Part shown: positions 31,058 to 45,981 of the stretch, one piece after another
How the letters are laid out: the number at the start of each line of letters is the position of its first letter
Numbering within the stretch: position 1 is the first letter of the stretch
From: Rhodothermales bacterium
Lineage (GTDB): Bacteria; Bacteroidota; Rhodothermia; Rhodothermales; UBA10348
Direction: 5' to 3'
DNA length: 64,000 nucleotides
Assembly (NCBI GenBank): GCA_017643395.1
Contig: JAEPNP010000003.1
Coordinates: 186,001-250,000, forward strand
Program-made: the position numbers and the translations under genes
Notes under the pieces: model-generated
What the model saw: only the letters and a program-made list of their open reading frames with translations
Databases searched by the model: none
Told to the model about the DNA's origin: nothing

Positions 31058-31387
31058 ATGGCAGAAGCAGTGTACATCCTACAGGCAATCGACGAGCAAA
31101 TCGCCCAGGTGGAGGGTGGACCCGAACTGGCCGTCGCGCTTGGCGTCTCCTACGATGACGCTCGGAGGACCGTGAAGCGGGATACCGGCGAGTCTCTAGG
31201 CTCGCATATTGAGAAACGCAGGGTCGATCTGATGAAACGATTGCTTCGCACAACCACGCTGCAATGCGGAGAAATCGCGCAGGTTGTCGGATATAGGCGA
31301 GTAGAGACGGCCTTTCGGGCGTTCAAGAGGAGGTGTGGAATGACAATGTCCGAGTACCGATCTGTCATCATCCGCGGGAGATTCTGA
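31058..31387 (+). CDS. AraC-type DNA-binding domain protein (stand-alone)
   Basis: 109 residues, only the double helix-turn-helix of AraC/XylS regulators: first HTH around GPELAVALGVSYDDARRTVK, linker GESLGSHIEKRRVDLMKRLL, second HTH in GEIAQVVGYRRVETAFRAFK and the terminal MTMSEYR. No sensor domain. Divergent from the M1 peptidase gene and 129 bases upstream of the thioredoxin-propeller-peptide genes, which it probably controls. Codon use (CTA, ATA, AGG) is less GC-biased than upstream genes, as through the whole 31-34.5 kb block. Confidence 0.82.
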   Translation: MAEAVYILQAIDEQIAQVEGGPELAVALGVSYDDARRTVKRDTGESLGSHIEKRRVDLMKRLLRTTTLQCGEIAQVVGYRRVETAFRAFKRRCGMTMSEYRSVIIRGRF

Positions 31388-41719: not shown

Positions 41720-41857
41720 GCTCCCGCATCGGGCGGTCGGAATTGTCCTACACGGGTTTGCGCGATCCTCTGATCGCCAAATCCCACATGGGCTTACAGG
41801 CGCGCGCGACCTGATCTGCTAGCTTGTCCAGCAGGATTAGTTATCAGTTTTCAGGTC

Positions 41858-43519
41858 ATGGTAGTCGTCATTCAAATTCTCCGCCTGCTGCTTTTTACCC
41901 AGCTTCTGGGGCTCACCCCGCAAGCCGATCCGGACAACTGGCCGGCCGCGGCAGATTCCGCGGTCGTACGCTTGCTGGAAACGACTCTCGAGGAGTCGCC
42001 GGGCTTTGATGCCCAGTATCCATGGGCTCGCCCAGTGGATGAGGACATCCAGCAGTTCTATGCGGCCAACGCATACAGAGCCGCCTGGATGGACGGTCCC
42101 GAGCCGACCCGGCTCGCCGAGATGCTGATGCGGGAGATTGAAGCGTCTGAGCAGGATGGATTTCGTCCTGAGGCATTCGGGCTAACTGCCCTGCATGAGG
42201 CCACTGAGTTGGTGGAAGAGGATCCGGTGCCGCGCAATGCGGTCGCCGCCGAGCTGGAGTTCTCGCGGGCCTTCATACAGTTTGCCGGCGCGCACCTCGA
42301 AGGGCGTGTCGACCCGCGCGGGCTGGGGTCTGAGGTGTACCTGACCGTCCCTCGTGCCCAGATGGATTCGATTCTTACCGAGGTCCTTTCAGGGAGTCCG
42401 CCACGCTCGCTGCGCACACTGCTTGTGCCGGAGTCGCCGCGGTATGAGAACCTCGTGGATGCGCTCGCCCGGTATCGCGAAATAGCGGACCGAGGAGGGT
42501 GGCAGCCCGTTTCCGACGGAGATGAGTTGATTCGTCCCGGAGACCTGGACCCGCGCGTTCCGGCACTGCGGGCACGCCTGAGTGCCAGTGGAGACCTGGC
42601 ATCGGGCGCCATGTCCGACTCGACATTTGATGGAGCGATTCAATCCGCTCTCGCGCGCTTTCAGGAGAGAAACGGCCTCGTGGTGGACAGTACGGTCGGT
42701 CCTGCCACGTTGGCTGCCCTCAACACCACGGTGGAGGAGCGGATTCGCCAGATCGAAATGAGCATGGAGCGACTTCGCTGGCTGCCCAGGGACCTGGGAG
42801 ATCGCCACATCTTCGTCAACATCCCCGAATTCAAGGTCTACGGTTATGATGAGGGCCGTGAGTCTCTCGAGATGCGGGTGGTCGTGGGCTCGGAATACGG
42901 TGGTCGCGAGACGCCCGTCTTCCAGGATGAGATGGACCACGTGGTCTTCAATCCCTACTGGAACGTGCCGAGGAGTATCACCATGGGGGAGATTCTGCCC
43001 AACGTGAAGGAGGATCCGGGCTATCTGGCTTCCCGCGGCTATGAGGGTGTGGACGGCGACGGAGACGTGGTTCCGGGTGCTGCGGTGACTGTGGACGACA
43101 TCGAATCAGGTGCTGTGCGCATTCGGCAGCAGCCTGGAACCAACAATGCGCTGGGTCAGGTGAAGTACATGTTTCCCAATCGCCACGCCATCTACCTGCA
43201 CGATACTCCGGCCGACCACTTGTTCTCCGAGGCCGAGCGTGACTTCAGCCACGGGTGCATCCGCCTGGAGGATCCGCCGGGATTCGGTGAGTACGTGCTT
43301 GGTCAGGAGGGTTGGGGGCTGTTGGACGTCGAGAGTGCCATTGCTTCCAACGAGCGCCAGGTGGTCCGGCTTTCAGAGACCATCCCGGTGTACATCATGT
43401 ACCTGACGGCGTTCGAGGACGATGGTCTCATTGCCTTCCGCGGTGACATCTATGACAACGACCGGGCCCTTCTGACGGCCCTGGAGCGATACGAAGGACA
43501 GGTGACGGCGTCAAAATGA
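41858..43519 (+). CDS. L,D-transpeptidase, YcbB-like
   Basis: 553 residues. An N-terminal hydrophobic segment exports it. An N-terminal scaffold region comes first, then a peptidoglycan-binding helix bundle (LARFQERNGLVVDSTVGPATLAALN), then the YkuD domain with PRSITMGEILP, HAIYLHDTP and the catalytic SHGCIRLED (His465, Cys467). It makes 3-3 cross-links or attaches proteins to peptidoglycan. Its TGA overlaps the ATG of the M15 peptidase gene, coupling cross-linking with a peptidase. Confidence 0.94.
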   Translation: MVVVIQILRLLLFTQLLGLTPQADPDNWPAAADSAVVRLLETTLEESPGFDAQYPWARPVDEDIQQFYAANAYRAAWMDGPEPTRLAEMLMREIEASEQDGFRPEAFGLTALHEATELVEEDPVPRNAVAAELEFSRAFIQFAGAHLEGRVDPRGLGSEVYLTVPRAQMDSILTEVLSGSPPRSLRTLLVPESPRYENLVDALARYREIADRGGWQPVSDGDELIRPGDLDPRVPALRARLSASGDLASGAMSDSTFDGAIQSALARFQERNGLVVDSTVGPATLAALNTTVEERIRQIEMSMERLRWLPRDLGDRHIFVNIPEFKVYGYDEGRESLEMRVVVGSEYGGRETPVFQDEMDHVVFNPYWNVPRSITMGEILPNVKEDPGYLASRGYEGVDGDGDVVPGAAVTVDDIESGAVRIRQQPGTNNALGQVKYMFPNRHAIYLHDTPADHLFSEAERDFSHGCIRLEDPPGFGEYVLGQEGWGLLDVESAIASNERQVVRLSETIPVYIMYLTAFEDDGLIAFRGDIYDNDRALLTALERYEGQVTASK

Positions 43520-44643
43520 ACGCACGGAGAATCCTGCCTCTCACCCTGTTTCTGATCGCACTGTTTGTCGCCGTATGGCACTGGAGCGTGGAGAATGACC
43601 GGGCCCGCGTCGCTACGGCGCGGGCCCATGTCGAGCAGCCCGTGCTCGAGAAGGCACCCCCGCTTGATCCGGATGAAGCCGTTGAGCGCGAGGCCGAGCT
43701 GGCCGCAGCGGCCGGGCTGCCTCTCGAGCCGGCCGCCGTGGGAGATCCTCACGTGCCGGCCGTTTCCGAACCGGTGGAGACCGGCCCGAGGGCCAGCTTT
43801 GCCGTGCAGGTCAAAGACCTGGTGGTGCCGTACTCGGTGATGGGGCTGTTCGTGCTTCCGGGTGAGGAAGTAGAATTTGAAACCGTGTTTGAGCGGCCGG
43901 AGGCCGAGTACAGTCTGCTGACCGAGTCGGGCACTCTGCTGGAGGCTTCGGACGGGCAGTGGATCTGGAAGGCACCAGAACAACCGGGCTATTACCCACT
44001 GTTCGTCGAAGGTCCGGTGGATCGCATTCAGTTCAATGTGCTGGTCCAGGAGCCCTTCAGAAACGGACCCGCGCTGTTCAACGGCTACCGCATCGGGGCC
44101 TACCAGAGCAAGCCGCTCCGTGGCGACGTGCGCTTCAACCCGCCGGAGGGATTGATTCCGGTCACGGAAGAGACCGCAGCCGTACGCGTATCTCCAAGTT
44201 TCACGCTTGCGTCGTTCGCGTCCCACCAGCCCGGAAACCCGCGCTACATGATTCTGGACGAGCGATTGCTGATCAAGCTGGAGATGCTCCTGGACGAATT
44301 GCAGAGCGACGGGTTTGACGTCACCACGTTCACGGTGATGAGCGCCTTCCGCACTCCGTGGTACAACGCATCCATCGGCAACACCACGCGATACTCGCTG
44401 CACCTGTATGGGCGCGCCGCCGACATCTTCATCGATGAAGATGGCGATGGCCGGATGGATGATCTCAACGGCAACGGCCGGGAGGACATCGGCGACGCCC
44501 GGGTACTGTACGACTTCATCGACCGGATGAAGGAACAGGCCTGGTATCAGCCCTTCCTCGGCGGCATGGGACTGTACGGCCCCAAGCCGCACCGCGGGCC
44601 ATTCGTGCACGTGGATGTTCGGGGCTACGTGGCGCGCTGGTAG
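43516..44643 (+). CDS. M15-type D,D/L,D-carboxypeptidase-like protein
   Basis: 375 residues, membrane anchor ILPLTLFLIALFVAVWHW near the N-terminus, an acidic linker, a beta domain (about 95-200) and a C-terminal peptidase M15A-like domain. Zinc and catalytic residues: His296 and Asp303 in SLHLYGRAADI, His365 in FVHVDVRG. Inside the domain an Asp/Asn/Gly loop (DEDGDGRMDD) resembles an EF-hand/dockerin calcium loop. Co-translated with the L,D-transpeptidase, so it probably trims the same stem peptides. Confidence 0.88.
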   Translation: MNARRILPLTLFLIALFVAVWHWSVENDRARVATARAHVEQPVLEKAPPLDPDEAVEREAELAAAAGLPLEPAAVGDPHVPAVSEPVETGPRASFAVQVKDLVVPYSVMGLFVLPGEEVEFETVFERPEAEYSLLTESGTLLEASDGQWIWKAPEQPGYYPLFVEGPVDRIQFNVLVQEPFRNGPALFNGYRIGAYQSKPLRGDVRFNPPEGLIPVTEETAAVRVSPSFTLASFASHQPGNPRYMILDERLLIKLEMLLDELQSDGFDVTTFTVMSAFRTPWYNASIGNTTRYSLHLYGRAADIFIDEDGDGRMDDLNGNGREDIGDARVLYDFIDRMKEQAWYQPFLGGMGLYGPKPHRGPFVHVDVRGYVARW

Positions 44644-44649
44644 TCCGCA

Positions 44650-44760
44650 TGTAGGACGCGACAGACACCTGTAGGAATCGCCCTACGGGGCGACGGGCAC
44701 GCGTCCTATCCGGACTCGCAAAATGGGCCTACAGACAGCCTGGGGCCGCTTTTGTACCAT
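44650..44760 (+). promoter_or_regulatory. Promoter module A of the DUF1328 cluster
   Basis: TGTAGGA at 44650 and 44670 (the latter forming GTAGG-N6-CCTAC), GTCCTA at 44703, TACAGAC at 44730 and a -10-like TACCAT at 44755. The 33-, 27- and 25-base steps from 44670 are repeated exactly in modules B and C. CAGAC sits where a -35 box would be. Confidence 0.7.
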
Positions 44761-44850
44761 GTAAATGCGAGTCAATGATAGCTCGCGGCGAGTCAATGTT
44801 TCTGCTCGCGATCATGGATACAAGTACACTTGAGGGAGGAATAGACAGAC

Positions 44851-45039
44851 ATGCTGAGGGCGGCACTTTTACTTTTCGTTCTGATGGTCCTGGCGACCAT
44901 CTTTGGCCTGGGAGGCCTCACGCTTGCAGCGCTGAAATTTGTCAAGACTGCGTTCATCATCTTCATGGTCCTGACGGCCATTACGCTTCTGTTTGAGCGT
45001 GCGGTGCCCGCGGAGAGCCACCGCTACGATTTTGAGTAA
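44851..45039 (+). CDS. DUF1328 (YtjA-type) small membrane protein 1
   Basis: 62 residues. Two hydrophobic helices (LLLFVLMVLATIFGLGG and FVKTAFIIFMVLTAITLLF) with the family start MLRAALL and glycine-rich turn. An unusual charged tail (PAESHRYDFE) follows. AGGGAGGA lies 14 bases upstream. DUF1328 proteins are small stress- or envelope-associated membrane proteins of unknown action. First of three consecutive paralogues, each with its own promoter module and terminator. Confidence 0.9.
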   Translation: MLRAALLLFVLMVLATIFGLGGLTLAALKFVKTAFIIFMVLTAITLLFERAVPAESHRYDFE

Positions 45040-45076
45040 GGCAGCTTTGAGTAAGGCAGCGAAGAGCTGCGATGTC

Positions 45077-45109
45077 AGCCCCGGCGGATCCGCTCCGCCG
45101 GGGCTTTTC
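45077..45109 (+). terminator. Terminator after DUF1328 gene 1
   Basis: AGCCCCGGCGGA and TCCGCCGGGGCT form a perfect 12-base stem with a five-base loop, followed by TTTTCT. The T-run directly abuts the first TGTAGGA of module B. Confidence 0.95.
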
Positions 45110-45221
45110 TGTAGGATCACCTGACACGGCTGTAGGACCCGCCTGACAACCGGAAGGGCCAACGTCCTAAGGCAGTAGGGACGGCCTGCCTACAGACCAA
45201 CTGACGGGGTGCCCGTATACT
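45110..45221 (+). promoter_or_regulatory. Promoter module B of the DUF1328 cluster
   Basis: TGTAGGA at 45110 and 45131, GTCCTA at 45164, TACAGAC at 45191, -10-like TATACT at 45216. Distances 33, 27 and 25 from 45131 equal those in modules A and C. Confidence 0.7.
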
Positions 45222-45286
45222 TGAATCGCGGGTCGGCAATACGGCTTCGCGCTATTGATTGACTGACCGCAGCAGGTCCACAACCC

Positions 45287-45457
45287 ATGATTCAGACAGC
45301 GACTCTACTATTTGTATTGACTGTTCTCGCCGCTGTCTTTGGCCTCGCAGGGCTGGGCGGCATGGACGCCGCTCTTGCCAAGCTGGCTTTCGTGGTCATC
45401 CTGCTTCTGGCGGTCGTGTCGCTGCTTCGCAGCCGACGCGCCATGCCGGTCACCTAG
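45287..45457 (+). CDS. DUF1328-like small membrane protein 2
   Basis: 56 residues starting MIQTATLLFVLTVLAAVFGLAG. The first helix, the glycine-rich turn (GLAGLGGMDA) and the second helix (KLAFVVILLLAVVSLL) align with its two neighbours, but the start MIQTA and basic tail (RSRRAMPVT) are divergent. Assigned to the same family by position, layout and promoter module. It has its own terminator. Confidence 0.82.
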   Translation: MIQTATLLFVLTVLAAVFGLAGLGGMDAALAKLAFVVILLLAVVSLLRSRRAMPVT

Positions 45458-45527
45458 TAGTACACAAGAAGTCGAAGAAGGTAGAGATCGAACCCGCGTT
45501 CTAAGTTTCGTCGCGGGGATGGTGCAT

Positions 45528-45570
45528 CGCCTGGCGGACCCGAGTCAAACTCTGGTCCGCCAGGCGTTTT
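45528..45570 (+). terminator. Terminator after DUF1328 gene 2
   Basis: CGCCTGGCGGACC and GGTCCGCCAGGCG give a perfect 13-base stem, followed by TTTTCTT. Confidence 0.95.
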
Positions 45571-45589
45571 CTTGGCCGGACCGAGAGTG

Positions 45590-45680
45590 TGTAGGAGATC
45601 ACCTACGACGGACAGGGATCCAGTCCTAACTGCCTTTGCTGGATGGACTTACAGACTTTGTCTTCTGGCAGTGGTAGAAT
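45590..45680 (+). promoter_or_regulatory. Promoter module C of the DUF1328 cluster
   Basis: TGTAGGA at 45590 (inverted pair GTAGG-N6-CCTAC), GTCCTA at 45623, TACAGAC at 45650, -10-like TAGAAT at 45675. Same 33/27/25 spacing as modules A and B; the extra upstream TGTAGGA is missing. Confidence 0.7.
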
Positions 45681-45742: not shown

Positions 45743-45907
45743 ATGCTTAGGGCAGCCCTAGTTCTTTTTGTGATCGCCATCATTGCCGCATTGCTCGGCT
45801 TCGGCGGCATCGCAGGTGCCGCAACCGGAATTGCGAAGATTGCTTTCTTCGTCTTCCTCGTGCTGGCCATTATCTCGCTCGTGACAGGAAGAAGCGTCAC
45901 AGCGTAG
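45743..45907 (+). CDS. DUF1328 (YtjA-type) small membrane protein 3
   Basis: 54 residues, the most canonical of the three: [22 protein letters not shown], then [25 protein letters not shown]. It is preceded by TGGAGGA at a good distance (45727-45733). Upstream module C and a strong downstream terminator make it an independent transcription unit. Confidence 0.92.
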
Positions 45908-45932: not shown

Positions 45933-45981
45933 GCCCTGGCGGATCGGGAATCACACCACCCGGTCCGCCAGGGCTTTTTTT
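45933..45981. terminator. Terminator after DUF1328 gene 3
   Basis: GCCCTGGCGGA and TCCGCCAGGGC arms followed by seven T. The stem resembles that of the previous terminator. It may also serve the minus-strand TPR gene ending at 46001. Confidence 0.9.

Follow-up and report, generated by a model that had tools for sequence, protein, structure and literature searches.

The DUF1328 gene cluster and its promoter module

The window analysed here is a stretch of 64,000 nucleotides from a Rhodothermales bacterium (assembly GCA_017643395.1, contig JAEPNP010000003.1, positions 186,001 to 250,000). On its forward strand lie three small genes at 44851–45039 (gene 1, 62 aa), 45287–45457 (gene 2, 56 aa) and 45743–45907 (gene 3, 54 aa). 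Gene 3 encodes a DUF1328 protein, which passes the Pfam gathering score of 27 (PF07043, E = 6.5e-13, 49.2 bits). The DUF1328-like small membrane proteins encoded by genes 1 and 2 gave no match in a Pfam search at E ≤ 0.001 and were recognized by alignment to gene 3. As they share 48% (gene 1) and 39% (gene 2) identity with it, they are regarded as diverged paralogs. Each gene is followed on the same strand by an intrinsic-terminator-like hairpin with a T run, read from the sequence (45077–45109, 45528–45570 and 45933–45981 for genes 1, 2 and 3, respectively), and the three genes therefore look like separate transcription units. An Rfam search of the window between 41 and 47 kb gave no matches.

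Upstream of each gene is a promoter module, for which an earlier note on this DNA had listed four elements with identical start-to-start distances in all three copies. The element starts, 44670/44703/44730/44755, 45131/45164/45191/45216 and 45590/45623/45650/45675, are all exact in the window sequence. Counted from the start of an 18-bp inverted repeat, the layout comprises a middle half-site at +33, a promoter-proximal one (CYTACA) at +58 and a -10 hexamer of the form TAnnnT at +85. Copy 1 consists of TGTAGGAATCGCCCTACG (44670–44687), GTCCTA (44703–44708), CCTACAGAC (44728–44736), which overlaps the -35 position, and TACCAT (44755–44760). The corresponding elements of copy 2 are the degenerate repeat TGTAGGACCCGCCTGACA (45131–45148), GTCCTA (45164–45169), CCTACAGAC (45189–45197) and TATACT (45216–45221), and those of copy 3 are TGTAGGAGATCACCTACG (45590–45607), GTCCTA (45623–45628), CTTACAGAC (45648–45656) and TAGAAT (45675–45680), all on the forward strand. 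Two extra TGTAGGA half-sites, also on this strand, are located 20 bp upstream of operator 1 (44650–44656) and 21 bp upstream of operator 2 (45110–45116).

The earlier note had taken the first element, TGTAGGA, for a half-site. Its position holds, but it does not stand alone: it is the left arm of the 18-bp inverted repeat, which reads TGTAGGA-N4-xCCTACG in copies 1 and 3 and is degenerate in copy 2. The idea that one half-site is used on both strands is supported, and so is that of a fixed array. Between copies, 23–24 of the 26 positions in the listed elements are identical, compared with 19–26 of the remaining 65 module positions, which is near background. The genome-wide scan for the module that had been proposed in the same note was run on the 4.5-Mb genome with a 20-base fixed-spacing pattern. 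Allowing up to three mismatches, it returned just the three reported places, while the reversed pattern, used as control, had no matches in the genome.

The module at other promoters and in related genomes

A genome scan allowing one mismatch revealed a fourth copy of the geometry at 41735/41795/41820 (0/+60/+85), which the earlier note had missed. Its inverted repeat GGTCGGAATTGTCCTACA (41735–41752) is followed by the promoter-proximal half-site CTTACAGGC at +58 (41793–41801) and the -10 hexamer TAGCTT at +85 (41820–41825); the middle half-site is weak (CTCTGA). All lie on the forward strand ahead of an L,D-transpeptidase gene (41858–43519) with matches to YkuD, scaffold and PG-binding domains. 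This first gene of the operon is overlapped by an M15-type peptidase-like gene (43516–44643, same strand; two M15 matches, both below the Pfam cut-off), the end of which directly precedes the DUF1328 cluster. Since the L,D-transpeptidase and M15 genes are unrelated to DUF1328, the common spacing is not merely a leftover of tandem duplication. At the same locus in a genome of the same genus (G001, L030), the L,D-transpeptidase gene and most of the M15 gene are apparently absent between an aldehyde dehydrogenase gene and DUF1328, the M15 tail being the sole remnant ahead of DUF1328.

Across genomes the repeat has the consensus GTAGGA-N4-TCCTAC, or (T/C/G)GTAGGA-N4-TCCTAC(A/G) with flanks. With one mismatch allowed, the consensus occurs at 15 places in the genome vs 10 for the control. 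Among its 12 non-exact one-mismatch palindromes, a -10 hexamer at +84 to +86 was found at the window sites only. An alternative form, TGTAGG-N6-CCTACA, was found at 14 places with one mismatch (7 for the control) and was dropped, as most of the extra places were in coding sequence. A weak repeat (9/12 positions) with TACGAT at +85 is also present at window position 31066; a match of this quality is expected about once by chance in the window.

The earlier note had staked its reading beforehand on the spacing being conserved upstream of orthologous genes. This is the case in the same-genus genome, where the single DUF1328 copy at this locus is preceded by TGTAGGAGTCGTCCTACG, GTCCTA at +33 and the -10 hexamer TATATT at +86. 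The spacing also extends beyond the genus: in G045, which belongs to a different family of the order, the DUF1328 gene keeps 0/+60/+85, with the repeat TGTAGGCATGTGCCTACA, CCTACGGGC at +58 and TAAGTT at +85. In the rest of the class, the majority of DUF1328 genes are without the module. A general DUF1328 promoter motif was considered and rejected, as TGTAGG/CCTACA was present within 300 bp upstream in 7 of 80 DUF1328 loci from other phyla, which is no excess; the module thus belongs to the lineage and not to the gene family. In the same 300-bp regions (L034–L113), GGAACC was seen in 34 of the 80 loci, a motif resembling the GGAAC found in general-stress promoters of the EcfG type.

A candidate regulator and its proposed regulon

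In a same-family genome, a perfect repeat is located at the 3′ end of the gene for a NarL/FixJ response regulator, here called R. In the window's own genome, R is encoded outside the window (C1:206866-207498, reverse strand) and combines a receiver domain (PF00072) with a GerE/LuxR helix-turn-helix domain (PF00196). The best of 94 NCBIfam models is UvrY/SirA/GacA (NF007018), with a score of 176.7 bits that is below the equivalog cut-off of 280 bits. Directly upstream of R is a histidine kinase gene with PAS repeats, HisKA_3 and HATPase domains. In the DNA-binding domain, most R proteins of the order have the stretch SVKT(V/I)STYR; f16 homologs have variants such as SPQTIHTYR, and their genomes are mostly without the palindrome.

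Exact palindromes overlap the 3′ end of R or are at most about 200 bp away from it in the window's genome (G000), G001 (two), G004, G019, G027, G031 and G045, and G206 has a near-exact one beside R (11/12 positions). These eight genomes span four families. The next gene past the R-side repeat often encodes a lipoprotein or a receiver-only regulator, and in three genomes (G041, G031 and G027) R and DUF1328 are found on one contig a few kb apart. Receiver-only regulators recur beside the repeat, R or DUF1328 at L204 808-1170, L203 1857-2408, L255 after 4378 and L258 6372-6782, and those adjoining any of the three may belong to the system.

When the class was scanned for exact copies of the repeat, 24 sites were found, spread over 13 of the 240 genomes. 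R, defined by a match at E ≤ 1e-60, is present in 20 of the 240, seven of which hold 18 of the sites; the other six are single sites among the 220 remaining genomes (7/20 vs 6/220 genomes, Fisher p = 1.2e-5). Of the 13 R-containing genomes without an exact palindrome, some keep just GTAGGA half-sites near R.

Spacing was then analysed outside the discovery set, using all 18 exact palindromes of the genomes with R in both orientations (36 sequences, offsets +19 to +139) and leaving out the window's three copies. CCTA peaked at +34, where it occurred 6 times (the mean for an offset being 0.15); together with the 2 occurrences at +35 the total is 8. TAnnnT occurred 4, 2 and 3 times at +84, +85 and +86, being most frequent at +84 and +86, and summed to 9 where 0.93 were expected. 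The Poisson p-values of ~1e-9 for CCTA and ~6e-7 for TAnnnT are somewhat optimistic, because orthologous promoters of G000 and G001 were counted separately. Neither feature was seen in any of the 12 oriented sequences around exact palindromes from genomes without R. At several non-DUF1328 promoters, conservation of the +58 element is poor.

Could the fixed spacing simply be inherited, one DUF1328 gene having been triplicated in tandem together with its promoter so that the shared elements are leftovers? Genes 1–3 are indeed paralogs and the same-genus genome has one copy at the locus, yet the elements have stayed nearly identical while the bases between them diverged to near background, and the same geometry precedes the L,D-transpeptidase gene, the R-side lipoprotein gene and a histidine kinase gene, and recurs in other families. 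Leftover spacing is therefore very unlikely as an explanation; the genes were triplicated, but the module was maintained by selection. The earlier note had also offered an alternative sigma factor that reads CAGAC at -35 together with the -10 hexamer, which would make the upstream repeats secondary. This fits the three DUF1328 promoters, where CAGAC is 17–18 bp from the -10 hexamer throughout, but CAGAC is not common to most of the other promoters, where the palindrome near -88 and the +34 half-site are kept in its absence. As the -10 hexamers look like ordinary TAnnnT, and exact palindromes in genomes without R have no -10 hexamer at that distance, we consider an alternative sigma factor extremely unlikely.

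A third possibility is that R is merely a neighbour and that the operator is bound by a different NarL/LuxR-type regulator or by an unrelated palindrome binder. Adjacency is not binding, and the genome has many other response regulators (44 matches to R at E ≤ 0.001, whatever their type), one of which could bind the operator instead. Against this, the palindrome adjoins R in eight genomes of four families, its presence tracks that of R, and the site resembles the operator of the family closest to R. Another binder thus appears unlikely, and R is the putative binder on the grounds of adjacency, co-occurrence and family resemblance.

We consider it probable that the module serves as operator and promoter in a two-component regulon, with phosphorylated R binding the array and activating envelope genes. 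The sequences themselves show where the sites are, how they are spaced and conserved, and how they are linked to R across genomes. Points that count against this reading are the 13 genomes with R but no exact palindrome, the weak middle half-site of the L,D-transpeptidase promoter, the variable +58 element and the number of other response regulators. In response to a presumed signal, the PAS-domain histidine kinase would phosphorylate R, and dimers of R-P would bind the palindrome GTAGGA-N4-TCCTAC centred near -88. The half-sites near -62 and over the -35 position would be filled by additional R protomers, the latter half-site covering roughly -39 to -31, where the -35 element is poor (these positions assume a start site ~12 bases after the beginning of the -10 hexamer). 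Such a layout would suit an activator array whose last contact adjoins RNA polymerase, and the array would recruit the ordinary polymerase to a promoter whose -10 hexamer is TAnnnT and whose -35 element is poor. The ruler formed by the palindrome, the half-sites at +33 and +58 and the -10 hexamer at +85 would be held within one base because the sites presumably must keep a set helix position relative to the polymerase.

The earlier expectation of a dedicated regulator with its own regulon is supported, and the regulon is also wider than DUF1328. Elsewhere in the genome, probable targets are the lipoprotein gene adjoining R, a histidine kinase/TMEM164 operon (C1:931503), whose site has an ortholog in G001, and subtilase genes in the vicinity of C1:1913601 and C1:1916703. 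Together with the three DUF1328 genes and the L,D-transpeptidase and M15 genes, the predicted targets are probably mainly envelope genes, and most sites precede protein genes. One exact repeat with a half-site at +34 (C1:267714-267729; L032 2715-3018) is followed by a ~200-nt stretch without open reading frames and a strong terminator. This stretch folds better than shuffled sequences (z = -3.1) and is a possible sRNA target; it was not found in 26 same-family genomes. CsrA (PF02599) was not detected in the genome, and hence this is not a classical Gac/Rsm cascade; the protein genes are more likely to be controlled directly than through sRNAs as in the classical route. A Gac/Rsm-type sRNA branch was accordingly rejected, given the lack of CsrA and the absence of the C1:267714 candidate from the 26 same-family genomes. 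The balance of the evidence leans towards a GacA-like regulator that directly activates an envelope regulon in CsrA-less bacteria through an operator ruler kept across several families of the order.

No description of this regulon was found in a limited search of the open-access literature, and the regulon is probably previously undescribed, with R as its probable regulator. For DUF1328 proteins, which are widespread and functionally obscure small membrane proteins, it would supply a regulon derived by computation and a specific candidate regulator, and would tie them to cell-wall remodelling enzymes. It also suggests a role for a GacA-like system in bacteria that lack the CsrA/sRNA branch. 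Its promoters, with their rigid operator geometry, form a natural series in which the contacts of NarL-type activators to RNA polymerase can be tested.

Comparison with known systems

EvgA of Escherichia coli, a NarL-family regulator involved in acid and osmotic stress, recognizes half-sites of the TCCTACA/TGTAGGA type with letters similar to those seen here. The EvgA half-sites point the opposite way to the palindrome arms of the module, and R scores 97.8 bits on the EvgA model vs 176.7 bits on UvrY/GacA.

The operator also resembles the GacA/UvrY/SirA box. The GacA box is TGTAAG-N6-CTTACA (PMC8523701), and the same 18-bp inverted repeat with the frame TGTnnG-N6-CnnACA is present here. The core differs, being GTAGGA/TCCTAC and not TGTAAG/CTTACA; the exact TGTAAG half-site is not found in this core, and at C1:1916703 TGTAAG stands on one side of the site. 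As in BarA-UvrY and GacS-GacA, the regulator is of NarL/FixJ type, with UvrY/SirA/GacA as best NCBIfam match. Much as proposed here for R, UvrY crosslinks at a distant upstream repeat and near -35 (PMC4682653). The repeat is at about -182 in the GacA/UvrY systems compared with about -88 here, where extra half-sites are fixed to the base. Unlike in the Gac systems, the targets here are mostly protein genes, and the CsrA-titrating sRNA route was not found.

A further parallel is CrbR and its ACTU motif at acs of Pseudomonas fluorescens, where a LuxR-type response regulator is paired with an imperfect inverted repeat (PMC5715377). CrbR has a single repeat at -52 to -36 and acts on acetate genes, but the two systems share the type of regulator, an inverted repeat just upstream of the promoter and a regulon that was found by its motif.
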